Part shown: piece by piece, positions 12,328-59,042 of the stretch | Position numbering within the stretch: position 1 is the first letter of the stretch | Layout: each line of letters starts with the position of its first letter | From: Sphingopyxis sp. JAI108 | GTDB lineage: Bacteria; Pseudomonadota; Alphaproteobacteria; Sphingomonadales; Sphingomonadaceae | Assembly: GCF_013410105.1 (NCBI RefSeq) | Contig: NZ_JACCCJ010000001.1 | Location: 1,364,001-1,428,000 of the forward strand | Reading direction: 5' to 3' | DNA length: 64,000 bases | Position numbers and translations under genes: made by a program | The notes under the pieces: generated by a model | Told to the model about the DNA's origin: nothing | The model's database searches: none | What the model saw: the letters and a program-made list of their open reading frames with translations, nothing else

Positions 12328-12567
12328 ATGTGGTCGCGTTTCAAGGCATTGAGGAATTTCAACAAATCCCTTCTGCTGATACTTCTGTTCATATCGATCG
12401 TGCTACCGCTAGAAATCTTCAATAAGATTTCTAGCGGCGTTGAAATGAGCGGCGAAGATTATCTGAAATATGCCCTGATCTGGGCCTCGTTCGTGTTCGG
12501 ATTCGTCTTCATAAATTTTGTTGATTTTATCGTGAGAGCGATGAACGGCGACAGCGCGGAATTGTGA
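12328..12567 (+). CDS. Small membrane protein, hypothetical
   Basis: 79 residues with two hydrophobic helices (about 14-30 and 48-68). Noticeably more A/T-rich than its neighbours. No family recognised. A perfect 14-bp inverted repeat lies inside the coding region (12406-12419 with 12424-12437). Confidence 0.55.
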   Translation: MWSRFKALRNFNKSLLLILLFISIVLPLEIFNKISSGVEMSGEDYLKYALIWASFVFGFVFINFVDFIVRAMNGDSAEL

Positions 12568-12623
12568 CACTTCTGGCCTAACCGGTAAAAGTCATCGGTC
12601 GACGCCGGATATGTTTTCCGGAC

Positions 12624-13430
12624 TTACTTCCCCTTGAACTCGGTCTTGCGCTTCTGCTGGAACGCCATGATGCCTTCCATCGCGTCCGCGGTGCCGCCCG
12701 CGATGAACTGGCCCTTGGCTTCGGCGTCGAGCGTGGTTGCGAAATCCTGCGACAGCCCGTCGCGCAGCACCTTGCGCATCGTGCCGAGCGCGATGGTCGG
12801 ACCGTTCGCGAGCCGCGTCGCCAGCGCCTTTGCTTCGGCCATCAACTCGGCATCGTCGACGCATTTATAGATCATGCCCCAGTCGGCCGCCTGCTCGGCA
12901 CCGATCTTCTCGCCGAGCATCATCATCTGCAACGCGCGCGGCACGCCGATCAGGCGCGGCAGCAGCCACGAGGATCCGCCGTCGGGAACGAGCCCGATAT
13001 TGACGAACGCCTGCAGGAAATAGGCGCTCTTGCCCGCGATGGTGAAATCGCCCGACAGCGCAAAGCTGCACCCGACGCCCGCCGCGGGGCCGTTGACCGC
13101 GACCACGACGGGGATGTCGAGATTGGCGAGCGAAAGCAGCATCGGGTTGTAATGGCCGCGCAGCGCATTGCGGCTCCGCGCCCCGCCGCTGACGGCGTCG
13201 CCCGCCGACCGGTCGCCCGCCAGATCGGCGCCCGAGCAAAACCCCCGGCCTTCACCCGTGATCAGCAGCGCGCGCGCGCCAAGCCCCGGCAAATGATCGA
13301 GCGCCGCGCGAATGTCGTCGGCCATCGCGGGCGGCATCGAATTCAGCCGGTCGGGGCGGTTGAGCGTGATCGTCGCGACATTGTCGGCGACGGCGAGCTT
13401 GATCGTGTCGAAGCTGGGACTGTCGGTCAT
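12624..13430 (-). CDS. Enoyl-CoA hydratase/isomerase family protein
   Basis: 268 residues from the ATG at 13430; the longer open frame upstream runs through repeats and is discarded. Crotonase features: ITLNRPDRLNSM, oxyanion-hole segments GRGFCSGADL and NGPAAGVGCSFALSGD, and GLVPDGGSSWLLPRLIG. The DGGSSW segment and FQQKRKTEFKGK tail are typical of PaaG/PaaB-like isomerases and hydratases of fatty-acid or phenylacetate breakdown. No other degradation gene is adjacent. Confidence 0.88.
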   Translation of the reverse strand: MTDSPSFDTIKLAVADNVATITLNRPDRLNSMPPAMADDIRAALDHLPGLGARALLITGEGRGFCSGADLAGDRSAGDAVSGGARSRNALRGHYNPMLLSLANLDIPVVVAVNGPAAGVGCSFALSGDFTIAGKSAYFLQAFVNIGLVPDGGSSWLLPRLIGVPRALQMMMLGEKIGAEQAADWGMIYKCVDDAELMAEAKALATRLANGPTIALGTMRKVLRDGLSQDFATTLDAEAKGQFIAGGTADAMEGIMAFQQKRKTEFKGK

Positions 13431-13570
13431 GGGGAAGAATCCTCTCGCAAATGCTTTACCTTTACGTTCACGTAAAGTTGTGACGCATTTGCCGGGCGAG
13501 TGCAAGGGGGAAGGGGGCGCGACCACGCTCGCATCCCGCCGATGGCAGCTGCTCGCCTTCTTGCTTCGCC

Positions 13571-13647
13571 ATCCCCGCGAAAGCGGGGGGCCAGAGCGGG
13601 CTTGGGCCGACCCCGCACCGGGTTCCCGCTTTCGCGGGAATGACGGG
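13571..13647. repeat. REP-like inverted repeat
   Basis: CCCCGCGAAAGCGGGG and, 40 bases on, CCCGCTTTCGCGGGAATGACGG form nested hairpins of the kind scattered through sphingomonad intergenic DNA. Confidence 0.75.
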
Positions 13648-13660
13648 GGAGGCGGGATCG

Positions 13661-13730
13661 CCCGCTCTCCACCCCATGTCGGTCGTCGGTGGCCGATCTG
13701 GCGGCAATGACCGGCACCGATTGCCGACAT
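13661..13730 (-). repeat. Dispersed repeat family 1, copy A1
   Basis: On the minus strand it shows GTCGGCAATCGGT, a GTCATTGCCG block, GATCGGC and GGGGTGGAGAGCGGGC in the same order as copies at 13833, 14842 and 28231, with substitutions. Confidence 0.65.
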
Positions 13731-13740
13731 GCAGCCCAAC

Positions 13741-13825
13741 TCCGTTCGCATCGAGCGAAGTCGAGATGCCCCTCGGGCGAAGCGCCACGTCGATGGATGT
13801 CTCGACCTCGCTCGACACGAACGGA
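13741..13825. repeat. Dispersed repeat family 2, copy 1
   Basis: Arms GTTCGCATCGAGCGAAGTCG and CTCGCTCGACACGAACGGA bound an 85-base inverted repeat. Near-identical arms occur at 51328-51409 and 59043-59123. Confidence 0.8.
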
Positions 13826-13832
13826 CAGAGAG

Positions 13833-13919
13833 GAGCGTCCGCTCTCCCCCCCCCCTTTCCGACCATTCACTGCCGATTTGGCAAGAATGACGGCATTCGA
13901 CCGATTTCGGACGCTCCCG
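13833..13919 (-). repeat. Dispersed repeat family 1, copy A2
   Basis: Minus strand reads GGGAGCGTCCGAAATCGGTC, a TCATTCTTGCC block, AATCGGC and a G-run ending GAGAGCGGACGCTC. Ends 57 bases before the orphan gene at 13977. Confidence 0.7.
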
Positions 13920-13976
13920 TGACAGGAACTAGAGCTTGAAAGCTGACTTTGCACGTTTGCCGAGGTACGACGTGCC

Positions 13977-14795
13977 ATGGATAAAACCGATCGAGCTAAG
14001 TTAGGTCCGCCGGATGATACGCCGATTATGGGGTGGTACGACGGCGTGTATTCGCATGGGTTCGTCGCCGTTCATCCATTTTTCACTGTCGAAGGATTGG
14101 ATCCAAACACGTGCGAGCATGGCACTTTGGTTCTCTCAGGTCGCGAAGCTCCGCGGGAACTCGGTTTGATGGAGTGGGCGGACGAAGAGTCTGCACAACG
14201 ACGGGTCGGCAAAGAAATTACCGCAGAAGGGGTTGATGGTCTCGCAAAGCGATTCGGGCGGCAGGTTAGTTGGCGAATGATGTGTCAGCAGGCCAACTTC
14301 GCCAACCACTGCGAATTGGACCGGGCGCTTCGAACGGGGATTGGAGGGCTTAGGCAGGATCTTGCAGATACCGCTGCGTCCGATCGGCTTGCCTACTACT
14401 GCTCTGAGCATCGAATCTTCACCCCAAATGAAGGAAGGTTTGAACCATCAATGCAATCCAGCTTGGCAAAACTCTTTCGAGCCGCGGGTTTTCTTAAAGT
14501 CGTGGTCGGCGATGAGTTTGGTGACGACGAGCGGCTAGTAGATATTGAACTGCTGGAGCGAGACGAACTGTGGGACGGGATGAACGAGCTTCCGCAGTAT
14601 GGCATCAAACGCTTGATCGCTCCCGATCATTCCCTTCTTGCGTGGGTCCACTGGGACAGCTTCTACACTCTGATACTTGGGACTGGCGACTCCCTCCGCG
14701 AGCTTAGGATCGATCGTTCGTTCGAGGGGTTTTGGTGCTCCGATGAAACTGACACTTACTGGCTTAATCAAGTCTGCCTTCCGCTCATCCAATAG
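13977..14795 (+). CDS. Hypothetical protein, repeat-bracketed orphan
   Basis: 272 residues, soluble, no signal peptide or membrane segment. Codon use is clearly less G/C-biased than in neighbouring genes, suggesting recent transfer. Conspicuous segments are GWYDGVYSHGFVAVHPFF and IKRLIAPDHSLLAWVHWDSF. I do not recognise the family. GAGG lies upstream of the ATG. It is bracketed by family 1 repeats at 13833 and 14842. Confidence 0.7.
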   Translation: MDKTDRAKLGPPDDTPIMGWYDGVYSHGFVAVHPFFTVEGLDPNTCEHGTLVLSGREAPRELGLMEWADEESAQRRVGKEITAEGVDGLAKRFGRQVSWRMMCQQANFANHCELDRALRTGIGGLRQDLADTAASDRLAYYCSEHRIFTPNEGRFEPSMQSSLAKLFRAAGFLKVVVGDEFGDDERLVDIELLERDELWDGMNELPQYGIKRLIAPDHSLLAWVHWDSFYTLILGTGDSLRELRIDRSFEGFWCSDETDTYWLNQVCLPLIQ

Positions 14796-14841
14796 GTTTA
14801 GGTACGGTCGGCTTATTCCACATGGCCGATCAATATCAGAC

Positions 14842-14921
14842 AGTCCGCTCACCACCCCAAAACCGACGTTCGTCGCCGATCCGGATGCAATGTCGGGAAA
14901 CGACCGATTGCGGACGTTCCC
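14842..14921 (-). repeat. Dispersed repeat family 1, copy B
   Basis: Complete-looking copy: minus strand starts GGAACGTCCGCAATCGGTCG and ends TTTTGGGGTGGTGAGCGGAC. Positions 14868-14905 (38 bases) are identical to the reverse complement of 28237-28274. Confidence 0.85.
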
Positions 14922-14949
14922 ACCTAACTCAGCGGGAGACCTAGACGCC

Positions 14950-15534
14950 CTACAGCCCGTCGGGGTGCGACGATAGCCAATCGGCATATTTTGATCGCAA
15001 CTCCTTCGCCTCTGCTTCTGAGGGCAGGAACATATCTACTCCACCGTCGTAAGGCGCAAATACTGCGCCGCTCTCGGCAGATATCCAAAGTGTAGGTGCA
15101 GCCCGTTCGTCGGCAATGCGCAACAGCGCGTTATCAAAGCCACCCTGTTTCCATCGAACAGGGGCCGCCATAACGTCCCAAGTAGCAACAGCATCGTCTC
15201 CTTCATCCAAGCCGAAGGAGAAGGCGTAATTGAGCCCAAGCTCGCGCGTTTCGCGGAACATCTCGCGCTTGTCGGCCGATTCGACAACGCCTTGTGGCGT
15301 GATCCAGCAAGCTTGCGCCATCCAACAGGCGCGGCCGTTCCCCAGAACCGCGCTGGCAAGCGCATTTTGCCTGCCAAGGAGGGACGAATATTCTTCCTTG
15401 GTTTCCGCGTAACGTTTCGAATGTGGAAGCGAGTGAAAGCGGATCCAGTGTCGGACATTGGCTGCTCGCATCAGCCAGCCAGTAGGCTCAGCGTCAGGGT
15501 GGAACGTTCTCCACAGATCAGCAAACTCGCTCAT
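14950..15534 (-). CDS. Hypothetical protein, repeat-bracketed orphan
   Basis: 194 residues, soluble, with many Trp residues and the C-terminal block GAVFAPYDGGVDMFLPSEAEA. GGAG precedes the ATG at a good distance. Lower G/C at third positions than neighbours. Family not recognised; the compact acidic, Trp-rich character recalls single-domain immunity or phage-associated proteins, but nothing proves this. It is convergent with the gene at 13977 across repeat B and is followed upstream by repeat C. Confidence 0.68.
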   Translation of the reverse strand: MSEFADLWRTFHPDAEPTGWLMRAANVRHWIRFHSLPHSKRYAETKEEYSSLLGRQNALASAVLGNGRACWMAQACWITPQGVVESADKREMFRETRELGLNYAFSFGLDEGDDAVATWDVMAAPVRWKQGGFDNALLRIADERAAPTLWISAESGAVFAPYDGGVDMFLPSEAEAKELRSKYADWLSSHPDGL

Positions 15535-15592
15535 GTTATGCTCCGGCGTTGCTTCGTTGCGACGCCGCTATGGAGGAATCGACCTTGAAGCT

Positions 15593-15625
15593 CAATGTCC
15601 GCTCTCCACCCCAAAGCCGCCAATC
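15593..15625 (-). repeat. Dispersed repeat family 1, copy C (partial)
   Basis: Minus strand GGCGGCTTTGGGGTGGAGAG followed by CGGACATT matches the 3' end of the repeat. Lies between the orphan gene and the APC permease. Confidence 0.7.
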
Positions 15626-15711
15626 GCCGCCCTCCCGATTGCACGTCTTGCGCTGGCGCCGGACGACCTTACAAGCGGCCGAAAGCCATTTAGCGCCCAA
15701 GGGGGATCCGC

Positions 15712-17112
15712 ATGACCGACAGCCTGTTTCGCCGCAAACCGATCGTTCCGGAACGGCGGGAGGGGGAGCAGGCGCTGGCGCGGACGCTCGGCTGGCCGCA
15801 CCTTATCGCGCTCGGTGTCGGCGCGATCGTCGGCACGGGCATTTTGACGCTGATCGGCGTTGGCGCCGACAAGGCGGGGCCGGCGGTCATCCTCTCTTTC
15901 GCCGTGGCCGGGCTGATCTGCGCCTGCGCCGCGCTCGCCTACGCCGAGATGGCAACGATGATTCCCGCGTCGGGCAGCGCCTATACCTATTCCTATGTCG
16001 TGATCGGCGAACTCATCGCATGGGTTGTCGGGTGGAGCCTGATCCTCGAATATTCGCTCGTTGTCAGCGCGGTCGCGGTTGGCTGGTCGGGCTATGCCGC
16101 GCCCTTGCTCCAGGCGTGGGCGGGATTCCCGATGGCGCTGATGCAGGGGCCGGAACTCGGCGGCATCGTCAACCTGCCGGCGATCGCGATCATCGCCGTC
16201 GTCGCGGGGCTGCTGCTTGTCGGCACGCGAGAGAGCGCGACGCTCAACGCGATCCTCGTGCTGGTCAAGATCGCCGCGCTTGTCGTCTTCGTCGCGGTCG
16301 CGCTCCCCGCCTTCGATGCGGCCAACCTCGAACCCTTCAGCCCCTATGGCTTCGCCAAGCATATGGGCCCCGACGGCGTCGAACGCGGGGTGATGGCGGC
16401 GGCGGCGATCATCTTCTTCGCCTTCTACGGCTTCGACGCGATCGCGACCGCGGCCGAAGAAGCGAAAAATCCCGACCGCGACCTCAAGATCGGCATCGTC
16501 GGTTCGATGGTCGCGTGCGTCGCCATCTATATCGCGGTCGCGGTCGCCGCGGTGGGGGCGATCGCCTACACGCGCTTCGCCAACAGCCCCGAACCGCTCG
16601 CGCTGATCCTGCGCGAACTCGGCAGTCCGCTCGCGGCGCAATATCTCGCCGTGTCGGCGGTCATCGCGCTGCCGACCGTGATCCTCGCATTCTTTTACGG
16701 ACAGAGCCGCATCTTCTTCACCATGGCGCGCGACGGCTTGCTGCCCGCGGGCCTTGCGAAGCTGTCGTCGCGGGGCACGCCGGTGCGCATCACCATCTTC
16801 ACGGCGATCGTCGTCGCGGTGCTCGCGGGCTTCATTCCCCTGGGCGAGCTCGCCGCGCTCGCCAACGCCGGCACGCTCGCGGCTTTCTCCGCGGTGTCGG
16901 TGTGCATGCTGATCATGCGCCGCCGCGCTCCGCAAGCACCACGCACCTTCCGCACGCCGCTGCCGTGGGTCGTGGGCGGCATCGCCGTGCTCGGCTGCAT
17001 CTATCTCTTCTTCAGCCTGCCCGTGCAGACGCAGCTCTGGTTCGTCGTCTGGAATATCGGCGGGCTGGCAGTCTATTTCCTCTACGCGCGCCGCAACGCG
17101 GCCGTGGGCTGA
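15712..17112 (+). CDS. APC superfamily amino acid permease
   Basis: 466 residues and about twelve membrane helices. GVGAIVGTGILTLIGVGADKAGPAV is the substrate-binding first helix of APC carriers, and EMATMIPASGSAYTYSY is the third-helix motif of the cationic amino acid transporter subgroup. Imports an amino acid with protons; specificity not readable. A run GGGGGAT serves as ribosome site. The YoaK-like gene follows 11 bases after the stop. Confidence 0.93.
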   Translation: MTDSLFRRKPIVPERREGEQALARTLGWPHLIALGVGAIVGTGILTLIGVGADKAGPAVILSFAVAGLICACAALAYAEMATMIPASGSAYTYSYVVIGELIAWVVGWSLILEYSLVVSAVAVGWSGYAAPLLQAWAGFPMALMQGPELGGIVNLPAIAIIAVVAGLLLVGTRESATLNAILVLVKIAALVVFVAVALPAFDAANLEPFSPYGFAKHMGPDGVERGVMAAAAIIFFAFYGFDAIATAAEEAKNPDRDLKIGIVGSMVACVAIYIAVAVAAVGAIAYTRFANSPEPLALILRELGSPLAAQYLAVSAVIALPTVILAFFYGQSRIFFTMARDGLLPAGLAKLSSRGTPVRITIFTAIVVAVLAGFIPLGELAALANAGTLAAFSAVSVCMLIMRRRAPQAPRTFRTPLPWVVGGIAVLGCIYLFFSLPVQTQLWFVVWNIGGLAVYFLYARRNAAVG

Positions 17113-17123
17113 CCGCGGCCGGC

Positions 17124-17762
17124 ATGATCCGTTTCGACCGGTCGCAGCAGAGGCTGGCAGCGGGCGTTTCGGCGCTCGCCGGCTTTATCGACGCGATCGG
17201 CTTTGTCGAATCGGGGGGCTTTTTCGTCTCCTTCATGACCGGGAATTCGACGCGGCTCGCGGTCGGGGCGGCGGAATGGACCGCCGCGGCGCTGATCGCG
17301 GGCGCGATCATCGCGCTGTTCCTTACCGGGGTCGTCGCGGGTTCGCTCCTCGCCGCGCGCGCGGCCGTCCGGCGGAGCGGGTGGATCCTTCTGTCCGTCA
17401 CCATGCTGCTCGCCGTCGCCGGCGCGCTTCGGCTGTTCGATCTTGCATGGCTTTCGGTCGCCTGCCTCGCGCTCGCGATGGGCATGGTCAATGCGGCGAT
17501 CGAGGGGCGGGGCGGGGCCGTCGTCGGCGTGACCTATATGACGGGAACGCTGGTCCACATGGGTCACAAGATCGCCAATGCGCTGCGCGGCGACGGTGAC
17601 GCGCGCTGGTTGCCGCACCTCGCATTGTGGGCGGCGCTCGTCGTCGGGGCGATCGCCGGTGCGCGCGCCGTCATCTGGTCGCCGCCGCTGGCTTATGGCC
17701 TGGCGGTTCTGTTTTCGGCAGGGCTGACGGCGCGGGCGCCATGGGCGGAGCGGCGCACCTGA
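17124..17762 (+). CDS. YoaK/DUF1275 family membrane protein
   Basis: 212 residues, about six helices, with the family signatures AGFIDAIGFVESGGFFVSFM, then TGNSTRLA, and later the repeated VTYMTGTLV. Function of the family is unknown; a transport role is often assumed. It is co-directional with and close behind the APC permease, so probably cotranscribed. Confidence 0.9.
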   Translation: MIRFDRSQQRLAAGVSALAGFIDAIGFVESGGFFVSFMTGNSTRLAVGAAEWTAAALIAGAIIALFLTGVVAGSLLAARAAVRRSGWILLSVTMLLAVAGALRLFDLAWLSVACLALAMGMVNAAIEGRGGAVVGVTYMTGTLVHMGHKIANALRGDGDARWLPHLALWAALVVGAIAGARAVIWSPPLAYGLAVLFSAGLTARAPWAERRT

Positions 17763-17780
17763 CGGCGCGCCGCCGCCGCT

Positions 17781-18080
17781 TCAATCGAACAGGTCGCTGA
17801 GGAAGCTCTTTTTGTAATTTTTCTTGTACGGCTTGCCGCCATAATGGCGGTCATCATAGCCGCGTTCGCGATATTCGGGCTGTGGCGGCGGGGGAGGGGC
17901 CGACGCGCGCGGCGCGGGGGCGCTCGCGGCTTCGCTGCGCTCGATGATCTTGTCGAGTTCGCCGCGATCAAGCCACACGCCGCGGCATTGCGGGCAATAA
18001 TCGATCTCGATCCCCTGACGTTCCGACATCGTCAAATTCACGCGGCAGGTCGGGCAAAGCAGGCCTTGGGGTTCGGACAC
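17781..18080 (-). CDS. Zinc-ribbon (TFIIB-type) protein
   Basis: 99 residues from the GTG at 18080, which has AAAGGAA at proper distance; the longer frame to 18131 lacks a site. CPTC and CPQC form a zinc ribbon, followed by RGVWLDRGELDKII, the hallmark of zf-TFIIB proteins. The tail is Pro-rich, then Tyr/Lys-rich, ending KKSFLSDLFD. Role unknown. Same strand as the DUF2218/PadR genes, 123 bases downstream. Confidence 0.85.
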   Translation of the reverse strand: MSEPQGLLCPTCRVNLTMSERQGIEIDYCPQCRGVWLDRGELDKIIERSEAASAPAPRASAPPPPPQPEYRERGYDDRHYGGKPYKKNYKKSFLSDLFD

Positions 18081-18203
18081 GGATATTCCTTTCTTCGTAA
18101 AGGCGGCCCACCGGCTGCCGTCTCGCTTCAACGTGCCACCGCCGGCCTGCGTTCCGCAAGCCGGAAGGCCCGATCCGGCCTACGGAGGCGGAGCGGGCCG
18201 ATG

Positions 18204-18524
18204 TCAGGCGGGTTTCCAGTCGAACGCCAGCGGGGCTTCGCGAAAGGCAAAGCGGTCGAGGTGGCGTGCGACGACGCCCGTCATCGCTTCGACATGCGCC
18301 TCGCTGCTCGCATCGATACGGACCGACAGTGCGTCGGCGCCGGCGTCGAAGGTGACGAGCGCATCGCTCGTCCAGGTGGCGCCGCGCCCATCCTTGGGGA
18401 AGGTCACGGTGCCATGGTCGGGGGTGAATTCGACCGCGAGGTTGTGCTGCCAATGCTTGCACAGTTGCTGCAGGTATTTGCTCGCATGCGCCGTCGGTAC
18501 GTGCGCTACCGATGATAATGTCAT
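18204..18524 (-). CDS. DUF2218 domain protein
   Basis: 106 residues. Start MTLSSVAHVPTAHASKYLQQLCKHWQHN with the conserved His/Lys and the later segment ARHLDRFAFRE define DUF2218. In other proteobacteria this domain is found with, or fused to, siderophore-interacting (YqjH-like) ferric reductases. It lies 12 bases behind the PadR gene and is surely cotranscribed with it, hinting at metal homeostasis. Confidence 0.88.
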   Translation of the reverse strand: MTLSSVAHVPTAHASKYLQQLCKHWQHNLAVEFTPDHGTVTFPKDGRGATWTSDALVTFDAGADALSVRIDASSEAHVEAMTGVVARHLDRFAFREAPLAFDWKPA

Positions 18525-18536
18525 GGTCTGATTTCC

Positions 18537-19148
18537 TTACAGTCGTTCGATTTTTTGTGATGCCTCGTCGATCAGCGCGACAATGGCGTGCATGGTCTCA
18601 TTATCGAGATCGCGATCGCCGAGCCGGTTCATCAACACCGCTTTCAAATTGCCCATCGCGCGGCGGACCGAAGCGGGGTCGGTGCGCTGGGTTTCTTCGC
18701 CAACCGCGGTCAGGCGGGCGAGGGCGGCATCGACGATCTCGCTGTTGGCCTCCAGTTCGGCGCGCCCGGCGTCGGTGATCGCGAACAGCTTTTTGGCGCC
18801 TTCGCTCTGCTGCGCCTCGATCTGTCCCATGTCGTCGAGCATCGTCAGCGTCGGATAGATGACGCCGGGGCTCGGCGCATAGGAACCGCCGGTCAACTCC
18901 TCGATGTGGCGGATCAGATCATAACCGTGACGCGGTTCGTCGCCGATCAGCTTGAGCAGCACAAGCCGCAACTCGCCGCCGTCGAACATCCGGCGGCGCT
19001 CGCCGCGCTCGCCCCGGCCGCCGCCGCCGCGACGGCCCCCGCCGCCAAAGCCATGTCCGAAACCGTGGCCAAATCCTCGCCCGCCGCCGCGATGGATCGC
19101 CCGCCGCCCGCCGCAACCCCGGCCGTCCAATTTTGCATAAAAAATCAT
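18537..19148 (-). CDS. PadR family regulator, YqjI-like
   Basis: 203 residues. The first 52 residues form a Gly/Arg/His-rich extension (repeats of FGHG), then a PadR winged helix: GELRLVLLKLIGDEPRHGYDL and SYAPSPGVIYPTLTMLDDMG. The match to E. coli YqjI, a nickel-responsive repressor of the ferric reductase gene yqjH, is good, including the later NLKAVLMNRL. The extension here has few Cys. GAGGAA precedes the ATG. Likely autoregulated through inverted repeats at 19171-19200. Confidence 0.88.
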   Translation of the reverse strand: MIFYAKLDGRGCGGRRAIHRGGGRGFGHGFGHGFGGGGRRGGGGRGERGERRRMFDGGELRLVLLKLIGDEPRHGYDLIRHIEELTGGSYAPSPGVIYPTLTMLDDMGQIEAQQSEGAKKLFAITDAGRAELEANSEIVDAALARLTAVGEETQRTDPASVRRAMGNLKAVLMNRLGDRDLDNETMHAIVALIDEASQKIERL

Positions 19149-19170
19149 TTGTCGTTCCTCAGAGTGATTC

Positions 19171-19200
19171 TAGATGTGTCTAAGATATATCGTAATACGA
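19171..19200. promoter_or_regulatory. Putative PadR operator
   Basis: Two small inverted repeats stand 22-52 bases upstream of the PadR start: TAGATGTGTCTA (19171-19182) and TCGTAATACGA (19190-19200), in a locally A/T-rich tract holding GATATATCG. Autoregulation is inferred from the family. Confidence 0.5.
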
Positions 19201-19339
19201 ACTTTGCAAGGGCTGCCCCCCGCGCTGCGCGGCACCTTCGCCAACTTCCACCGCACGCCTTGACTTCGCGGCCATTCCCGCTATTAGCGCCCCCGTGTTG
19301 CCACGGGCTTGCTCGCGGCAATTCCGTCCGAGACAGTTG

Positions 19340-19559
19340 GTGAAGGGGATCTGCCCTTCTTAATTTCCAGCCGAGACGGGGAACAGTCTTTTTCGGTCGC
19401 CCGCCTGTTTTCAGGCGACGCGTCTTGACCGACCCCATCGGACATCGTTGCGCAAATGCAGGTGAGCCTTGGCTCGCGTCGGCATTTGCGTGTGTTAGCC
19501 GCCCGGCGGCGCGCGTGCTTCGGCGTGCGGGCATCCGGGCAGATGAGTGGAGTATAGGC
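19340..19559 (+). ncRNA. Probable ribosomal protein L10 leader
   Basis: A long untranslated leader precedes rplJ, with several pairable segments such as GCAAATGC...GCATTTGC (19453-19492) and GGCGCGCGTGCTTCGGCGTGC. L10(L12)4 binding to such leaders is the usual autoregulation. The boundaries are approximate. Confidence 0.5.
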
Positions 19560-20075
19560 ATGGATCGTACGGAAAAGGCCGAAGCCGTATCCTCGCTGAA
19601 CGCTACGCTGGGATCAGCTGCTGCTGTTGTGGTCGTCCGCAACCTCGGCATGACCGTCGCTCAGTCGACGGTGCTGCGCCAGCAAATGCGCGATGCAGGG
19701 GCCGACTTTCGCGTCACGAAGAACCGTCTTGCCAAAATCGCGCTCGATGGCACGTCCTACACCGGTATCGGCGAACTGCTGACCGGTCCCACGGCCCTCG
19801 CGACCTCGACCGATCCGGTCTCGGCTGCGAAGATCGCCGTGGAATTTGCCAAGACCAACGACAAGCTTGAAATCGTTGGCGGCGGCATGGGCGACGTGGT
19901 CCTCGACGTGAATGGCGTGAAGGCGCTGGCTTCGCTTCCCTCGCTCGACGAGCTCCGCGCCAAGATCATCGGTCTGGTGCAGGCTCCGGCCACCAAGGTT
20001 GCGCAGATTGCCGCAGCCCCGGCGGGCCAGTTGGCGCGGGTTTTTGGCGCATATGCCGCCAAAGAAGCAGCGTGA
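19560..20075 (+). CDS. rplJ: 50S ribosomal protein L10
   Basis: 171 residues from the ATG at 19560. MDRTEKAEAVSSLN start, VVVVRNLGMTVAQ and FRVTKNRLAKIAL are typical, and the C-terminal helix LARVFGAYAA anchors L7/L12 dimers. Forms the stalk base at the GTPase centre. The upstream extension of the open frame reads the leader and is rejected. Followed by rplL after 58 bases. Confidence 0.97.
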   Translation: MDRTEKAEAVSSLNATLGSAAAVVVVRNLGMTVAQSTVLRQQMRDAGADFRVTKNRLAKIALDGTSYTGIGELLTGPTALATSTDPVSAAKIAVEFAKTNDKLEIVGGGMGDVVLDVNGVKALASLPSLDELRAKIIGLVQAPATKVAQIAAAPAGQLARVFGAYAAKEAA

Positions 20076-20133
20076 TTTCGAACTAACTTTGAAACTTACT
20101 GCCGGGATATCCCGGTTCTGATGGAGAATGAAC

Positions 20134-20505
20134 ATGGCTGATCTTGCAAAGATCGTTGAAGAATTGTCGGCGCTGACCGTCCTCGAAGCGGCTGACCTGT
20201 CGAAGATGCTCGAAGAAAAGTGGGGCGTTTCGGCCGCCGCTGCTGTCGCTGCCGCTCCGGCCGCTGCCGCTGCTGGCCCGGCTGCTGAAGAGCAGACCGA
20301 ATTTGACGTCATCCTGACGGGTGACGGCGGCCAGAAGATCAACGTCATCAAGGAAGTCCGCGCGATCACCGGCCTGGGTCTTGGCGAAGCCAAGGCGCTC
20401 GTCGAAGGCGCGCCGAAGGCCGTGAAGGAAGGCGCCAGCAAGGCGGAAGCCGAAGAGCTGAAGAAGAAGCTCGAAGCTGCCGGCGCGACCGTCGAACTGA
20501 AGTAA
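20134..20505 (+). CDS. rplL: 50S ribosomal protein L7/L12
   Basis: 123 residues from the ATG at 20134, chosen over 20128 because GGAG lies 7 bases before it. N-terminal dimerisation helix, Ala/Pro hinge (about 36-52), and the C-terminal factor-binding domain EFDVIL...[20 protein letters not shown]. Multiple copies form the stalk that recruits elongation factors. A strong terminator follows, so rpoBC is not in this transcription unit. Confidence 0.97.
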
Positions 20506-20549
20506 TTCGGTTCGGGGTTCCGGCCGGTCAACCGGCCGGGTTCCAGCGA

Positions 20550-20585
20550 AAAAAAGGGCGGTGCCGGAAGGCACCGCCCTTTTTT
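20550..20585 (+). terminator. Terminator of rplJ-rplL
   Basis: Perfect 16-bp stem (20550-20565 with 20570-20585), loop GGAA, with A6 on one side and T6 on the other, so it can work in both directions; the gene ending at 20606 converges on it. Confidence 0.93.
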
Positions 20586-20605
20586 ATTCGGCGGGAGGCC
20601 GCCGG

Positions 20606-21664
20606 TCAGTTCCGGGCAAAGCCGGGGCGAAGCGTACCAAGGCGTACCGAGCCGCGCTCGGGGCGGCGAACTTCCTGTTCCGCGGGCGTCTGAGTGACTT
20701 CGCGCTGGGCAATTTCCCATGCACTTACTGGCTTGCGCGTCATATCTTGCTGATTAGCCAGCGTTTCGTCGTAGGCGACGCGTTCCTGACGGTCGAGGAA
20801 ACGGGCACGCTTGAGGCGCTTGCTGAGCGTCGCAAAAGGATTGCCGGGCGTCGGCCCCGCAAGGGCCATCGCTTCGTGACGTCCCATGCTGCCGCTCGGC
20901 GCCGCGGCGAAAGCGGGGGTGGTGCGCGGTGCCTCGACGCGTTCGCGCGGAGTATAAGCGGGTGTGATCCACGGCTGCGCTTCGGTCATCGCGGGCGTGG
21001 CGGTCACCGCCGGCTCACTGTCATAGGCGCGCGCATTTTCTGCATTCGCGCTCGCGCTGCGGCGGCGGCGGCGAGCAAAGGCGAGACCCGCACCCCCGAC
21101 GATGAGCAGCGCGGCCGCGCCGCCAGCGAGTTCCCAAGGGAAATCGTTGCCGCCAACGCTCGAATTTTCAGCAATCGGCGGCGATGCGGCTTCCGCGACG
21201 GGTTCGGCGGGGGCAGTCATCTGAGCGGCGACAGGTGCGACATCTTGGGTAGGCGCGGCATCGGTGGCGGGCGTTTCGGCGACCCGCTCAGGCGCGGCTG
21301 CCGGAGCAGCGGCCGTGCGGGCGCGCGGCGATGCCCGTTCGCTCTTGGCCGGAGCAGGAGCGGCTCGCTCGGCCGTCTTAGGCGCGGGGGCGGGTTCCGC
21401 CGGCTCGATTTCGAGCGGCACTCGGATGACCGGCCTCGGCGCCGGCGGCTGCGTGGCGGGGGGCTGTGCGGCTTCCGGCGCCGCAACGGGGGCGGGCGTA
21501 CTCGGCTCGGGCACCGTTGGCGGGGTTTGCGGGGCAGGCGCAGCGACCGGCGGGGTCATTGTGATCGTCGGCGCTTCCTGTGCGAACGCGCCGGGGGTGG
21601 ACAGGGCCAGAAACGCGGCAATCGCGCTCATGGCGGGGCGGGAGAGGGCGATATTCTTTGTCAT
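20606..21664 (-). CDS. Secreted/anchored Pro-Ala-rich protein, hypothetical
   Basis: 352 residues from the ATG at 21664. Signal peptide (SAIAAFLALSTPGAFAQ), then about 130 residues dominated by Pro, Ala, Glu and Thr, then a membrane helix at WELAGGAAALLIVGGAGLAF followed by RRRRRS, and a cytoplasmic-looking tail with GNPFATLSKRLKRARFLDRQE. The layout suggests a surface or periplasmic stalk anchored by a late helix. No family recognised. It ends 20 bases from the rplL terminator. Confidence 0.72.
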   Translation of the reverse strand: MTKNIALSRPAMSAIAAFLALSTPGAFAQEAPTITMTPPVAAPAPQTPPTVPEPSTPAPVAAPEAAQPPATQPPAPRPVIRVPLEIEPAEPAPAPKTAERAAPAPAKSERASPRARTAAAPAAAPERVAETPATDAAPTQDVAPVAAQMTAPAEPVAEAASPPIAENSSVGGNDFPWELAGGAAALLIVGGAGLAFARRRRRSASANAENARAYDSEPAVTATPAMTEAQPWITPAYTPRERVEAPRTTPAFAAAPSGSMGRHEAMALAGPTPGNPFATLSKRLKRARFLDRQERVAYDETLANQQDMTRKPVSAWEIAQREVTQTPAEQEVRRPERGSVRLGTLRPGFARN

Positions 21665-21895
21665 AGTGAGGAAGGAACGAGCCACGTGTTGAAAGTGCTG
21701 CCCGAAATGCGGCGCTTCCGCGACGAGCCGTGCGCGTCGAACGGCGCGGCGAAGATTTCGCCACGATAGACCATTATAGGGAAGCCGCCTTTTCCAGACT
21801 TTTGGGGATGAAAGTGACAGTGATTTTGCGTTTTGATGGCAGCCGCGTCACCAATACGTCATTCGCGCGCAACCTTGGCGTGATCAACGCCGGGC

Positions 21896-22924
21896 ATGAA
21901 GACGACCGACCCTGTCCCCACCCGGCTACCCGACCATCTGCGCGAAACGCAGCGCCTGCTTTTCATCGCCAAACATGCGCGCTGGACGGGCGGCCTGCAT
22001 CCCGACGATGGCAACCACGCGCCCTATCACAGCGAAATGCGCGAAACGCTTGAGCGGCTTGGCATCGCGCTATCGATCGCTGACAGCTATGCCGCGCTGT
22101 TCGATCGGCCGGCGGTCGATTTCGTCTTTCCGCTACTGAATCGTGGCGGCTTCTTCAATTCGGAAATGCTGCTTCCCTTGCTGTGCAACCAGCATGGCTT
22201 GCCGTATCTGGGCGCCTCGCCGATTGTTCGCGGCTTGTCCGACGACAAGCATCTGACCAAGCTGGAAGCAGCGGCGCGCGGCGTGCCGACTGCACCCTGG
22301 GCCTTGTTCCGCCGCGGCGCGCCCATCGACGTGTCGCGTTGCCCGCCGGCGCGGCGCTGGGTGATCAAGCCGAACAACAGCTCCGCCTCGTGGGGCGTGC
22401 GCGATGCCCACGACCGTGTGCAACTTGCGCGGGCGGTCGCCGGAATCCACGCGCTTGACCATGATGCGATCGTCGAGCCCTTTATCGACGGCAGCGATAT
22501 CGAGGTGCCGGTCATCACGCTCGATGGCGAGCCGACCATGCTGCCGATGATGATTTTCGAGCAGGCCGACCCGACCCAACTCCGCTCGTATCAGGAGAAG
22601 CGCGACCTGGTCGGTCATGTCGGATATTCGATCAAGCGGTTCGACGATCCATTCATCGCTGGCCGGGTTGCGGACTATACGGCTCGAATGGCGGATATTT
22701 TTCGCCCGTTCGATTATGGTCGGTTCGAGTTTCGCGTCGATCATGCGACCGGCGACGTCCGGTTGCTCGAGGTCAACCTGAACTGCAACCTCTGGTCCGA
22801 AAAGCTGTTCTCGCGCTCCGCGGTGGCCGCGGGCTTTTCCCACGCCGAGCTGATCGAAACGATCGTCGCGGAAAGCATGATCCGCCAGATCGTGCCCGCG
22901 GCAGCGCGGCGCAACGCGGCGTGA
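21896..22924 (+). CDS. ATP-grasp ligase (D-Ala-D-Ala ligase-like)
   Basis: 342 residues. ATP-grasp layout: N-terminal domain with VDFVFPLLNRGGFFNSEMLLPLLC, the segment GLPYLGASPIVRGLSDDKHLTK used by D-Ala-D-Ala ligases to open the ATP site, RRWVIKPNNSSASWGV as the nucleotide-binding lysine strand, EPFIDGSDIEVPVI, and the metal site RFEFRVDHATGDVRLLEVNLNCN. It should join an acyl group to an amine via acyl phosphate; the substrate is unknown. Stop overlaps the GTG of the nucleotidyltransferase gene by 4 bases. Confidence 0.8.
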   Translation: MKTTDPVPTRLPDHLRETQRLLFIAKHARWTGGLHPDDGNHAPYHSEMRETLERLGIALSIADSYAALFDRPAVDFVFPLLNRGGFFNSEMLLPLLCNQHGLPYLGASPIVRGLSDDKHLTKLEAAARGVPTAPWALFRRGAPIDVSRCPPARRWVIKPNNSSASWGVRDAHDRVQLARAVAGIHALDHDAIVEPFIDGSDIEVPVITLDGEPTMLPMMIFEQADPTQLRSYQEKRDLVGHVGYSIKRFDDPFIAGRVADYTARMADIFRPFDYGRFEFRVDHATGDVRLLEVNLNCNLWSEKLFSRSAVAAGFSHAELIETIVAESMIRQIVPAAARRNAA

Positions 22925-23781
22925 GCGGATCGATCCTGATCCTGGCCGGGCGGCGACAAGGAGCCGTCGATCCGCTTGCCGAGGCGCATGGCGTTGCCGA
23001 CAAATGCCTTGTTCCCGTCGCGGGACGGCCGATGATCGCGCATGTTCTTGAAAGCGCGGCGGACAGCAAGGCGGTGCGGATCTTCGTTTCGACGCACCAC
23101 GCCGGGCTGCTCGACGATCTCGCCGATCCGGTGGTCGAATTGCTGGGCGGCCGCCTGATGGTCACGCCGGCGGCCGACAATCTGGCGGATTCGGTCCTCG
23201 CGGTTGCCGACAACGCCGCGTTTCCTTTGCTTGTCACCACGGCGGATAATTGCCTGCTGACCCCTGCGACGATCGCGGAGATCGAGGCGGAGGCCGTGCG
23301 GCTGGATGTCGATGCGGGCGTGGCGCTGGCGCGCCGCGAGGACGTGCTTGCGGTCCATCCGGAAGGTCAGCGGCGCTTTTACGAGTTTTCGGACGTCGCG
23401 GTGTCGAACTGCAACGCCTATTGGATCGGCCATCCCGGCGCCTTGAAAGCGGCGGAGGCATTTCGCGGGGGTGGGCAGTTCGTGAAGAAGCCACTCCGCG
23501 TGATGCAGGCGTTCGGCCTCATCAACTTGCTCCGTTTCCGCTTCGGCCTTGGACCAATCCATCATATCTTCCGGCGCATTTCACGTCATCTGGGAGTCGA
23601 GATCGCCCCGTTGCTGGTGAGCAACGGGGCGACGGCGATCGATGTTGACAATGAAAGGTCGCTACGAGTGACAGAGGCGCTGATGAAGCGCCTCGATATC
23701 ATCAATCCGCGACCCAGTTCCCGTGAAAACCCGGGGGGACGCGGTGGGGCAGGTGAACGACAGCTTGCGGTGACCCGGTAA
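22921..23781 (+). CDS. NTP-transferase family protein (MobA/GlmU-like fold)
   Basis: 286 residues; GTG start at 22921 overlapping the ATP-grasp stop (GTGA). LILAGRRQGAVDPL replaces the usual LAAGxGxR of nucleotidyltransferases, then DKCLVPVAGRPMIAHVLES, and TTADNCLLTPATI with the metal-binding Asp. It may transfer a nucleotidyl group to a sugar phosphate, alcohol phosphate or similar compound. From about residue 262 the chain runs antisense to the carotenoid oxygenase gene and looks like read-through (RPSSRENPGGRGGAG). Confidence 0.78.
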   Translation: MSGSILILAGRRQGAVDPLAEAHGVADKCLVPVAGRPMIAHVLESAADSKAVRIFVSTHHAGLLDDLADPVVELLGGRLMVTPAADNLADSVLAVADNAAFPLLVTTADNCLLTPATIAEIEAEAVRLDVDAGVALARREDVLAVHPEGQRRFYEFSDVAVSNCNAYWIGHPGALKAAEAFRGGGQFVKKPLRVMQAFGLINLLRFRFGLGPIHHIFRRISRHLGVEIAPLLVSNGATAIDVDNERSLRVTEALMKRLDIINPRPSSRENPGGRGGAGERQLAVTR

Positions 23782-25144
23782 AATCATCGGCGTCGACGAT
23801 GACGAGCGCGGTCGTTTCGTTATTCATGTTCACGACCAGCCCGATCAGCCAGCCGTCATCCTCGGCGCCGCTTGCGCTGCGCGGGACGAAGACGAACTCG
23901 CCGGGATGGCGGCCGGGACCGAAATCATGGATGGCGGTCGTTCCCTTTTCGAGGTCGTGCTTGAACAGGCGCGTTTCTGCCAGCGCCCATTCGGCAGACA
24001 CGTTGTCGGGGATCGCAATCGTATAGGCATAGCGATAAGGCTTCGTCGTCAATCGTTCATCGTAGCGCGGGAATTCCTGCGCATGATCGTGGATGACGGT
24101 GCGGGTCGTCGTTCCGGCGACCGGATCGATCGTCCAGCGTTCCAATCGCGATTTTTCGCTGTCGGGACCGCGCTTCGAACTCGCGAACATCGTCTCGTGC
24201 GCGACGACGTCGACGATCACCTTGCCGTCAGCTGTTTCATAGGCGTTTGCGGGGTGGAAGACATAGCAGGGCTCGACCGGCACCCAGATGATACTGTCGC
24301 CGCTGCCTTTCCTGGGGAGGAGCCCGACGCGCGCTGGATGCGCATCGTTCCATGCGTAGGGGAAGCGATAGCCCGCCAGCAGCATTTTCATCGAGAAGGT
24401 GACGGGGAGGTCAAAGACCAGCACGTAATTTTCGGTGATGGCGCAATCGTGGATCGAAGGGCCGTCGCTGACCGTGACCGGCTCCTCCCGGATGACGTGC
24501 GCTTGGCTGTCGAGCACGACGTGCCAGACCTTGTTCGGCTCGTCGCCGCGATAGGTGATGGCGTGCATCTCGTCGGTGAAGGGATCGTGATGCGGATGTG
24601 CCGTATATCCTCCGATCAGCGTGCCGTCGAACGGGTTGTGCGCGATCGTGTTCAGCTCGTAGCCCAGTTCGACAGGCTTTCCGCCGGCCTCGACGATAGC
24701 GAACGTACGACCCGCGAGGCCGACGACATTGGTGTTCGGCGCGTCGTTGCGGCCTTCGCGCGGGCCGGGAGGCAGTTCCTCACCCAGAACTTCGCACGCC
24801 TCGGTGCCGCGGACCCAGCGGTTGCGGTACCAGTCGGCCTTGCCGCCTTCGATGCGGATGCCGTGGACCATGCCGGCGCCGGTGAACCAGTGGTAGCTGG
24901 CGGGATCGGGCGCGGCGGCGGGGTTCGGGCCGTTGCGCAGGTAGCGGCCGGTGAGCTGCGCCGGGATCTCGCCATCGACGCGGAGCGCTTCGAGCGTGAG
25001 TTCTTCGGTCATCGGTTTGTGGATGCCGGTGAGGAAGGGGTGGGCGTCGGTGGGGCGGGGGAGGCGCTTGCGGTTGAAGTCGGCGACCTTGCCGATGCCT
25101 TTGACGACCGCGCCGCGGATGAGGGTTTCGACGTTGCTTGCCAT
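23702..25144 (-). CDS. Carotenoid cleavage oxygenase family protein
   Basis: 480 residues. RPE65/lignostilbene dioxygenase family: RYLRNGPNPAAAPDPASYHWFTGAGMVHGIRIE near residues 67-97, TAHPHHDPFTDEMHAITYRG and DCAITENYVLVFDLP with iron-binding His residues, and C-terminal VHLPHRVPPGFHGNW with the last iron His. Four His bind Fe(II), and the enzyme splits a conjugated double bond with O2. Sphingomonads use such enzymes on carotenoids or lignin stilbenes. Divergent from a TetR gene whose promoter holds two operator-like repeats, so it is likely the repressor's target. Confidence 0.93.
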   Translation of the reverse strand: MASNVETLIRGAVVKGIGKVADFNRKRLPRPTDAHPFLTGIHKPMTEELTLEALRVDGEIPAQLTGRYLRNGPNPAAAPDPASYHWFTGAGMVHGIRIEGGKADWYRNRWVRGTEACEVLGEELPPGPREGRNDAPNTNVVGLAGRTFAIVEAGGKPVELGYELNTIAHNPFDGTLIGGYTAHPHHDPFTDEMHAITYRGDEPNKVWHVVLDSQAHVIREEPVTVSDGPSIHDCAITENYVLVFDLPVTFSMKMLLAGYRFPYAWNDAHPARVGLLPRKGSGDSIIWVPVEPCYVFHPANAYETADGKVIVDVVAHETMFASSKRGPDSEKSRLERWTIDPVAGTTTRTVIHDHAQEFPRYDERLTTKPYRYAYTIAIPDNVSAEWALAETRLFKHDLEKGTTAIHDFGPGRHPGEFVFVPRSASGAEDDGWLIGLVVNMNNETTALVIVDADDFTGSPQAVVHLPHRVPPGFHGNWVAD

Positions 25145-25212
25145 GACGATGCTCCTTACGGAAGGTGACGAAGGTGCCGCGTAGCGTGGGGGTTGCGCCG
25201 GCGACTCGATAT

Positions 25213-25257
25213 GTTTACAGTGGCAACATCATGGCAAGCAAAGATAACAGTGTCAAC
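25213..25257. promoter_or_regulatory. Two direct operator-like repeats, 30 bp apart
   Basis: GTTTACAGTGGCAAC (25213-25227) and GATAACAGTGTCAAC (25243-25257) share the core ACAGTGNCAAC. The first overlaps the start region of the tetR gene and the second lies inside its codons 5-9. Similar sites bind many TetR repressors. Confidence 0.6.
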
Positions 25258-25836
25258 TTAAAAGGCGGGGCGCCGAAGACGGCGCGCGCCTATCATCATG
25301 GCGACCTGCGCGCGGCGGTCATCGCGACGGGGCTGAAGAGGCTGGCCGAGGGCGACGGCGCCGAGCTGGGGCTGCGCGCGCTGGCGCGCGACGTCGGGGT
25401 CAGCGCGACCGCGCTCTACCGCCATTTCCCCGACAAGGAAGCGCTGCTCGACGCGCTCGCCGACGAGGGGCTGCGGCGGCTCGGCGCGTTGCAGGCGCAG
25501 GCGTGGCTGAAGGCGGGCGGCGGGGTCGCGGGCTTCAAGGCGACGGGGATCGCCTATGTCCGCTTCGCCCACGACGAGCCCGCGCTTTTCCGCCTGAGCT
25601 TCACGCGCCAGATGCCCGACCGCAAGGAAGGCGGCGACGGCGGCGAGGTTGCGTACAATCTGCTGCGCGCCGGGGTCGGCGAAGCGCTGCCCGGCGTGGA
25701 CAATGTCGATATCGCCGCCCTGCACGCCTGGGCGCTGGTGCACGGCCTCGCGATGCTGATCCTCGACCGGCGCATCGACTGGGACGAGGCGAAGGTGGCG
25801 GAAGTCGTCGGCCTGACCTTTGGCGGGGTGGACTGA
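25231..25836 (+). CDS. TetR family transcriptional regulator
   Basis: 201 residues from the ATG at 25231. HTH with RALARDVGVSATALYRHFPDKEALLDALAD at about 47-76; the C-terminal ligand domain is of the WHG type (LHAWALVHGLAMLILDRRIDW). Divergent from the carotenoid oxygenase gene, which it probably represses together with itself. Confidence 0.9.
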   Translation: MASKDNSVNLKGGAPKTARAYHHGDLRAAVIATGLKRLAEGDGAELGLRALARDVGVSATALYRHFPDKEALLDALADEGLRRLGALQAQAWLKAGGGVAGFKATGIAYVRFAHDEPALFRLSFTRQMPDRKEGGDGGEVAYNLLRAGVGEALPGVDNVDIAALHAWALVHGLAMLILDRRIDWDEAKVAEVVGLTFGGVD

Positions 25837-25912
25837 TCGCGGGAAAAACCGGGCCGCAAGGGCGGCGCGTTATATTAGCGGTTTATTTTACCCTTTTCGG
25901 CTAACTGGTTGC

Positions 25913-27715: not shown

Positions 27716-27741
27716 CGGCGGAAGGTTCCGGTTTGGGAATA

Positions 27742-27768
27742 TTGGCGGGTTTGGGGTGGGGAGCGGAA
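27742..27768 (+). repeat. Dispersed repeat family 1, copy D (partial)
   Basis: GGCGGGTTTGGGGTGGGGAG followed by CGGA matches the 3' block of the repeat. It stands between the diguanylate cyclase and the RraB-like gene. Confidence 0.7.
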
Positions 27769-27800
27769 AGCGGGCCGGATGCTGCGACGCTGGGATGGGC

Positions 27801-28208
27801 TCAGTCGGTTGCTTCTTCGACGGAAGTTTCCCATCCGTCATATTTTACCTTGTAATGAGCCTCCATCCTCAGCGTGTCTTGGCGAAGCCGAGCCAAATCC
27901 TCGGGCGTCGTCGATTGCTCTCGTTCAAGCCAAAGATAGAGTTTGCCGTCAGCGTCACTTACATCAACCAATCGCCAACCTAAGGCAATGGCATCGCCTT
28001 TAAGTCGATTGATCGGTGCATCTTCCCCAGCAAAATACACGCTGACTGGTCGAACGATATTGGGGGCGTCCCCAGCGTCCCTCAGGGCGCTGACGACTTC
28101 AGCGTCAGACATCTCCTCTTTTGCGAGGCGCTCTGCCGTGATCGGAACCTGATCCAACCCCATTGAGAGGATTCCTGCGGCGAGAACCATCGATAACATT
28201 TGGCTCAT
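27801..28208 (-). CDS. RraB-like domain protein with a hydrophobic N-terminus
   Basis: 135 residues. The C-terminal half follows the RraB (RNase E inhibitor) fold: RLKGDAIALGWRLVDVSD, a middle strand YLWLERE, and the hallmark KYDGWETSVEE. The first 20 residues (SQMLSMVLAAGILSMGLD) look like a secretion signal or anchor, unlike cytosolic RraB. If the start is instead an internal Met the protein would be cytosolic. Lower G/C than neighbours and bracketed by repeats D and E. Confidence 0.7.
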   Translation of the reverse strand: MSQMLSMVLAAGILSMGLDQVPITAERLAKEEMSDAEVVSALRDAGDAPNIVRPVSVYFAGEDAPINRLKGDAIALGWRLVDVSDADGKLYLWLEREQSTTPEDLARLRQDTLRMEAHYKVKYDGWETSVEEATD

Positions 28209-28230
28209 GTGCCACTGCCCACCGATGTCT

Positions 28231-28299
28231 GCAACTGGTCGTTTCCCGACATTGCATCCGGATCGGCGACGAACGACAGAAACGGGGTGGGAAGCGGAC
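28231..28299 (+). repeat. Dispersed repeat family 1, copy E
   Basis: Second well-preserved copy, in opposite orientation to copy B. Positions 28237-28274 are identical over 38 bases to B; the 3' block is GGGGTGGGAAGCGGAC. Confidence 0.85.
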
Positions 28300-28399
28300 A
28301 GTCGGTTTTCAGGACCGGTACGTCGTTAAGCGGATCGTCACAATTAGAAGCCCAAACTCAGACGGACGAGCACTTCTACTACCCAAGAATGAGCCGAGC

Positions 28400-28888: not shown

Positions 28889-28944
28889 CCGCGCGCCCAA
28901 CGTCAAATTGTGGTCGAAAGCTACCGTTCGCCATCGCGGGCTCT

Positions 28945-38720: not shown

Positions 38721-38745
38721 GGCGGCTTTGGGGTGGGAAGCGGAC
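38721..38745 (+). repeat. Dispersed repeat family 1, copy F (partial)
   Basis: GGCGGCTTTGGGGTGGGAAG then CGGAC, the 3' block. Directly before the orphan lipoprotein gene. Confidence 0.7.
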
Positions 38746-38844
38746 TGTCTGGTAATGACCTTGGCTGTTCAGAGCGGACGCTTTGATTTGTTGCGCGGAC
38801 GGGTAAACAGATCAGTGAACGGGTTTCGGGACAGGGGCAATCGA

Positions 38845-39363: not shown

Positions 39364-39514
39364 TGGAGCGGGGCCTCAAATAAATTGCCGCTTTCGGGAT
39401 CGAGAGCGTTTGCATCTGAGGACGGCAATCGGTCGTGAACTGCCACACCGGGGCGGCGGTCGCGATCGCGCGCCGGCCTTGCCATTCGCGACGCTTTTCC
39501 CCACATCGAGCGCC

Positions 39515-59030: not shown

Positions 59031-59042
59031 CTCAAAAATCTC

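Follow-up and report, generated by a model that had tools for sequence, protein, structure and literature searches.

The stretch analysed here (the window; G000:C1:1364001-1428000) covers 64 kb of the 4.05-Mb, seven-contig genome of Sphingopyxis sp. JAI108, and this study concerns a locus at 13660-15621 in which two genes lie among copies of a short dispersed repeat. Its left side consists of repeat A1 (13660-13728, plus strand), a 69-base-pair (bp) junction of two kinds of site, H and T, joined by a loop; a palindromic filler (TCCGTTCG...CGAACGGA) in the A1-A2 interval (13741-13825); and repeat A2 (13837-13912, plus strand), a 76-bp H-loop-T junction. The first gene (13977-14795, plus strand) encodes a 272-amino-acid (aa) protein of the DUF2711 family (Pfam E 2.2e-7) and the second (14950-15534, minus strand) a 194-aa protein of the DUF3885 family (Pfam E 5.2e-32). 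They are separated by repeat B (14843-14915, plus strand), a 73-bp H-loop-T junction, and the locus ends with repeat C, an H site at 15597-15621 (plus strand). Copies beginning at 13660, 13837, 14843 and 15597 stand before, between and after both open reading frames (ORFs), as reported in a preliminary description of the window. That description had also called the two genes orphans with weak G/C bias at third codon positions; their third-position G/C content is 0.57 and 0.59, but both match known protein families.

A same-species genome in one contig, G003, was picked as sister strain by a DNA search of 80 genomes of the window's genus. Its flanks are 99-100% identical to those of the window, and between A2 and C it holds other DNA. 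Identity stops at 13903, within the T part of A2, and returns at 15597, so that A2 and C form the left and right borders of the swapped segment and A1 and its filler are kept. In G003 an enoyl-CoA hydratase gene is followed by A1, its filler and A2, then by a palindromic filler that includes another T, a gene for 138 aa, B, a different gene for 176 aa (X2), C and an amino-acid permease gene. The 138-aa protein, which takes the place of the DUF2711 protein, matches CdiI_3, a family of contact-dependent growth inhibition immunity proteins (E 9.9e-15), and X2 takes the place of the DUF3885 gene. Repeat B between them is 97% identical over 76 bp; both genes therefore differ between the strains while A, B and C persist. 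Every one of the 80 genomes gave a match to part of the query, but among the matches listed 13904-15592 was covered by the window's own genome alone, and to that extent no orthologue speaking against a cassette-like entry of these genes was seen.

The preliminary description had treated the copies as one dispersed repeat. The repeat itself is real and not due to chance: its 25-base head pattern (GTCCGCTYNCCACCCCAAANCCGNC, at most three mismatches) has 40 matches in G000 and 40 in G003, and the reversed pattern, used as control, has none in either. Each copy, however, is the junction of two related but different sites, H (GTCCGCTYN-CCACCCC-AAAGCCG) and T (TTT-CGACC-RATTGCGGAC), of which array ends have only one. 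Written as arms around a centre, H is (GAACGTCCGCTYN)-CCACCCC-(AAAGCCGMCRTTC) and T is (GAAYGNCGGNTTT)-CGACC-(RATTGCGGACRTTC). Both are imperfect dyads. When consensus sequences were derived from 70 H contexts and 30 T contexts (some of the T sites being clearly fortuitous), the two arms of each agreed at 10 of 14 positions at a single offset, compared with 2-5 at all others. A curated set of 35 cassettes, built later, gave the centres CCACCCC (H) and GGTCG/CGACC (T) and the inner arms AACGTCCGC (H) and ATGTCCGC (T, reversed); the outer arms are also alike. The GTCCGC arms point to the gene, with the same orientation relative to it at both cassette ends, and the other arms remain with the chromosome. 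Apart from A1 and A2, H-loop-T junctions measure 73 bp in the five aligned from the window's species and 61-62 bp in seven junctions of an array in G198, a genome of another genus; H-H and T-T arm junctions also occur (by eye). The space from T to H is occupied by a single gene of low GC content or by a short palindromic filler.

Replacement at these sites is not confined to the studied locus. G000 and G003 were compared continuously over 224 kb (the window and a further 160 kb), a sample not picked by repeat content, and are colinear at 99.1-99.7% identity with six replaced segments of at least 60 bp. In four of the six, a break point lies within 10 bp of one of 16 H sites (15 found by the scan and a variant head at 28299 added by hand); none of 20,000 rounds of random placement of 16 points reached four, the maximum being two. 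The remaining two segments are more than 11 kb from any head. G000 has 40 H sites; for 35 of them a comparison with G003 was possible, in stretches that, unlike the 224-kb sample, were picked around repeats, and 11 of these 35 break at the repeat. A filler in one strain corresponds to a gene in the other at L054/L067, L056/L073, L060/L070 and L061/L071.

The switch from shared to strain-specific sequence was read by eye in same-site pairs (11 left, 12 right). The left switch falls directly after CGACC(R) in seven of 11 pairs, and on the right the last cassette-side difference is within two bases of CCACCCC in eight of 12. A shared-word reading of the site in 28 relatives gave mostly chance words and was dropped. 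As a separate observation, one site is occupied in G000 by an apparent phytanoyl-CoA dioxygenase-type gene (L119 4020-4820) and in G003 by a small lipoprotein-like gene (L076 10460-11170), as judged by eye.

Three cassettes were found at two loci each. A copy of X2 of G003 with 99.7% identity across 604 bases lies near 521 kb of contig C2 in G000; a 145-aa WapI-family cassette lies near 2907 kb in G003 and at the start of contig C4 in G000 (99.8%), which holds another gene at the locus equivalent to G003 2907 kb; and a 201-aa cassette occupies two G003 loci with 625 of 625 bases equal. The G000 copy of X2 (L051 4067-4555) is shortened by a premature stop relative to the G003 copy. A cassette encoding a 135-aa RraB-family protein (27801-28208, minus strand; Pfam E 5.2e-10) occurs at three loci in three species, namely in the window and in G002 and G068, with 85-86% identity over 501-502 bases. 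Its neighbours are RlpA-like and glutaminase-like genes in G002 and a patatin-like gene and an 847-aa gene in G068 (by eye). The shared stretch begins at the centre of the H site that ends this cassette (27744-27768, minus strand), at 27752-27753.

Where a cassette occurs at several loci, identity between its copies, taken over 30 bases, is 0.60-1.00 inward of the centres and 0.17-0.50 outward of them; different cassettes give a background of 0.36-0.41. At the left end of L089/L057 a value of 0.13 was obtained on the inner side, because the degenerate T centre of L057 had put the comparison out of register. The inner repeat halves move with the gene, the outer halves remain at the locus, and the polarity from T to H is constant. 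At the window's RraB site, the sister species G071 has the same half-sites with only a hairpin filler. Among six further species examined there, one (L220) has a slot of the form T-filler-H and two (L221 and L224) have differently arranged arms; arms are absent from L219, L222 and L223.

Most T-H intervals contain one ORF that nearly fills them, or 36-136 bp of filler without an ORF of 60 aa. Two orthologous 437-bp intervals likewise have no ORF of that length, and chance accounts for some of the T calls. Fillers are palindromic repeats of several kinds. Repeat-bounded cassettes average 54.1% GC in G000 (n = 17) compared with 66.9% in 33 flanks. Cassette ORFs were taken as the longest frame, so that single cases may be wrong. 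Thirty-four cassette proteins, 31 from the window's species and three from G198, fall into 33 groups, the sole related pair sharing 52% identity over 91 residues. At E ≤0.01 they match 13 Pfam families, one protein each: DUF3885, SpoU methylase, WapI immunity, homocysteine S-methyltransferase, DUF2750, DUF7668, CdiI_3, RraB, DUF2711, DUF2059, DUF6869, DUF2306 and zinc ribbon, the DUF2059 and zinc ribbon matches being under the curated cut-offs. Two of the proteins thus match immunity-protein families (CdiI_3 and WapI), and none of the 34 matched known defence proteins in PADLOC or phage proteins in PHROGs. The ORF reads from T to H in 22 of 30 cassettes of the window's species (binomial p = 0.016), a count that leaves out the doubtful ORFs L074, L075 and L085, L086 4720-5330 with its unclear ends and the ORF at 62.4 kb, which the script missed; with three G198 cassettes added, the hand tally is 25 of 33. 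Arrays comprise two to about four cassettes in a row in the window's species and ten heads in a row in G198.

Genes are swapped between conserved repeats, the same cassette occurs at different loci with the same T-to-H polarity, and the sequence switches at or within a few bases of the centres. That single genes are exchanged between the repeats is nearly certain. The cassette-like entry of single foreign genes proposed in the preliminary description is supported by a sister strain with the same repeats, different genes and break points at the repeats, and by related genomes that carry one cassette at different loci with homology stopping at or near the repeat centres. As judged from these comparisons, the repeats are likely to be sites of a two-site, site-specific exchange of chromosomal cassettes, and we infer that the exchange is catalysed by a site-specific recombinase, as XerC/XerD do with dif modules. 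In the proposed mechanism, a T half and an H half would flank a single gene or palindromic filler to make up a cassette, and the recombinase would act on like pairs of sites, T/T and H/H. Because the end sites are unlike and inversely oriented, a cassette should be unable to leave as a circle by crossing its own ends, whereas paired T/T and H/H crossing would replace one gene with another at a fixed site and keep the polarity. Candidate agents may be Xer proteins acting on unusual sites, an enzyme supplied by other elements, or plain short-homology recombination.

Several results weigh against a dedicated site-specific exchange. Twenty-four of the 35 comparable H sites run through without any strain difference. 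The switch is not always at the centre: on the left it lies 6-8 bases into the inner arm in three of 11 pairs and inside the centre in one, on the right it is 6 or ~12 bases off in two of 12 and inside the centre in two, and in three same-site pairs differences are found beyond the centre too. The homology of the RraB cassette likewise extends ~12 bases past the T centre, into the outer arm. The centres themselves vary, being CGATC in L060, CGACCCC in G198 and degenerate in L057. Folded as single strands, the junctions mostly do no better than shuffled sequence and show no consistent excess, with z values from 0.06 to -5.28 at six sites of the window's species (the best two being A2 and a filler hairpin) and from 0.48 to -2.29 at seven G198 junctions. 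No recombinase linked to the sites was found by profile searches of G003, and the whole case is a comparison of genomes, with no crossover, circle or cointegrate intermediate observed.

A first reading of the sites as hairpins was dropped for lack of consistent excess folding. Known structured RNA was also rejected, an Rfam search of 12500-29500 having given seven hits, all under gathering scores and none at a repeat. Carriage by phage or plasmid was rejected after searches in which 13900-15620 had no match among phages and repeat C and the RraB cassette had none among plasmids.

The searches for enzymes returned few candidates. PF00589 retrieved three G003 proteins, two of them Xer-like, neither at the XerC or XerD equivalog cut-off, and the third a 496-aa integrase; none of these three tyrosine recombinases reached the integron-integrase cut-off of 265 bits (TIGR02249). 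PF00239 retrieved nothing from G003, by which a resident serine recombinase as the general enzyme was rejected. Y1 transposases (PF01797) are absent from G000 and G003 and were found in five of 14 control genomes, other transposases and target duplications not having been searched for; REP/RAYT and IS200/IS605 systems were rejected on the absence of this enzyme from the two strains. Of 44 recombinase loci scanned for the sites, only L169 has a good T-H pair beside the gene, L168 has an H and a T apart, and other matches are weak and single. By eye, no recombinase is present among the 11 listed ORFs of the 13-kb locus that holds the G198 array. It may be recorded that in L169 (G008) the T-H pair at 1288-1433 adjoins a tyrosine recombinase gene, and that in G003 L124 a filler repeat lies directly before an XerC-like gene.

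The main rival explanation, which we consider rather unlikely, is homologous or annealing recombination (by RecA after DNA uptake, or by a phage-type annealing protein) in which repeats of 30-75 bp serve as short homology. Allelic exchange would then spread alleles, and the switch would appear central only because the centre is best conserved, an account to which we give the same limited credence. The failure to find a dedicated enzyme favours it, as do the left switches inside the inner arm in three of 11 pairs and the 97-99% identity between places of repeat B and of a 130-bp T2-filler-T1 module, both usable as homology. Against it, outer arms at new loci show identities of 0.17-0.50 over 30 bases, like the background of 0.36-0.41, which would leave homology of only ~5-15 bases; most pairs switch at the same centres or immediately beside them; and ~33 different genes bear the same end pieces. 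Minimal mobile elements of Neisseria, which rely on homologous recombination in flanking genes, similarly have conserved flanks that enclose a different small set of genes from strain to strain. Here, in contrast, the same cassette is also found at unrelated loci.

Transposons without a transposase gene, with inverted ends of ~32 bp and moved in trans by a DDE transposase (mobile insertion cassettes), are an improbable source of this pattern. They resemble the present cassettes in having a passenger gene between related inverted repeats and no transposase gene, one gene each, and repeated occurrence of an element at several loci. An element that transposes would, however, carry both ends in full to its new place, whereas here different genes at one locus have the same outer halves and flanks: the outer halves stay and the passenger changes.

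Even less probable are remnants of integron type, that is attC-like clusters without integrase that are moved by an integron integrase from elsewhere. Integrons, including chromosomal arrays and integrase-less attC clusters, also contain single-gene cassettes, mostly of unknown function, split by imperfect palindromes (PMC8876359), and the tandem arrays of G198, in which small single genes are followed by an imperfect palindrome of constant length, are of similar appearance; the prevailing co-orientation of ORFs (22 of 30) also agrees. However, RYYYAAC occurs in 0 of 35 H sites and GTTRRRY in one of 35 T sites (one strand, one box per site kind), by which classical attC sites were rejected. 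Folding appears weak at most sites, the three G003 tyrosine recombinases are all under the integron-integrase cut-off, and where an array ends, half-sites are retained by the chromosome on either side. Unlike in integrons, two kinds of site frame each cassette and the sites are dispersed over the chromosome. That repeats and foreign genes just accumulate where selection is weak, the plain alternative named in the preliminary description, is hardly credible: the repeats do lie between genes, and nothing but other repeats is present at several sites, but this explains neither the breaks within 10 bp of H sites in four of six segments nor the presence of cassettes at other loci with their end pieces, moved with the inner repeat halves.

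Closest to the proposed site-specific exchange are the dif modules (pdif) of Acinetobacter plasmids, which lie between inversely oriented sites and are replaced by XerC/XerD via site pairs with matching spacers (PMC13141974). Both are small gene modules with inverse two-arm sites round a short spacer. By comparison, the present sites are chromosomal and scattered, and their centres come in two fixed kinds, 5 bases long in T and 7 in H, against 6 in dif. The T and H arms are also unlike the XerC/XerD sites, the best matches to the Acinetobacter arms being 5-6 of 11, as is usual for random 11-mers (the genus's own dif was not found). The system seems to work like integron cassettes and dif modules, but it lacks defining features tested for each (core boxes and integrase for the former, Xer arms for the latter) and looks like neither a classical integron nor a known Xer module. 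No account of a T/H system was seen in the titles and abstract openings of the open literature searched. Tentatively, it might represent a third cassette system beside integrons and Xer-dif modules, with a dedicated putative recombinase and two unlike sites that swap single genes directionally at dozens of chromosomal sites.

Further sites are distributed along the window, and the genes at 27.7-28.9, 38.7-39.4 and 62.3-62.8 kb are framed by repeats as the preliminary description had stated. The framing of genes is nevertheless not universal, as some intervals contain palindromic filler: an H site at 59003-59027 (minus strand) is followed by such filler at 59028-59131 and a T-like site with two mismatches. 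Beside the RraB cassette, a 73-bp H-loop-T junction (28227-28299, minus strand), with the G003 break point at 28290, separates it from a 162-aa cassette gene without Pfam family (28400-28888, plus strand), in place of which G003 has other DNA, and a T site (28900-28932, minus strand; limits by eye) closes the array. A 202-aa cassette gene without Pfam family (38755-39363, plus strand), the same in G003, lies between an H site matching the head pattern (38721-38745, minus strand) and a T-like site with two mismatches from the site scan (39421-39435, plus strand). At 62328-62461 (plus strand), a T2 site, palindromic filler and a T1 site precede a 130-aa cassette gene (62466-62858, plus strand), also the same in G003, which reads out through an H site with three mismatches to the head pattern (62769-62793, plus strand). 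The ~130-bp T2-filler-T1 module is 98-99% identical at window 62329-62457, L039 4112-4240, L086 6376-6502 and L103 4247-4379, and these copies, from loci of two strains, are far more alike than the repeats generally.

At least one H match was identified in 114 of 298 family genomes and in 56 of 91 genera. Eight genomes of the window's genus have 42, 43, 40, 36, 17, 8, 0 and 0 matches; the two without H sites, G058 and G074, are each 2.3 Mb in size, and the other sampled members have 8-43. In G198, L150 (G198:C1:2338000-2351000) contains a tandem array of ten heads in ~5 kb, beside transport genes. Relatives of the DUF3885 protein were found in six of 397 family genomes, its own included, and of four relatives of the DUF2711 protein, two are from named genera of the Sphingomonadales (Stakelama and Sandarakinorhabdus). 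Inspection by eye places pieces resembling T and H on either side of the gene at L236 (a Sandarakinorhabdus metagenome-assembled genome) and L235 (Stakelama marina), although the strict patterns gave no clear T/H pair there; L237 and L238 have no such pieces. These flanks hint at a wider use of the sites.

A wholly new system, which we regard as an uncertain prospect, would span the Sphingomonadaceae, taking the form of dispersed single slots in the window's genus and of tandem arrays in another, as in G198, and would supply a family-wide pool of small accessory genes. Should the repeats indeed be exchange sites, a large family of environmental bacteria would hold many of its orphan genes in exchangeable slots with defined ends, and these genes would not be random debris. 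The origin of such orphans would be directly testable, a simple signature would allow the cassette pool to be collected, and the family would possess a recombination system with natural pairs of unlike sites.

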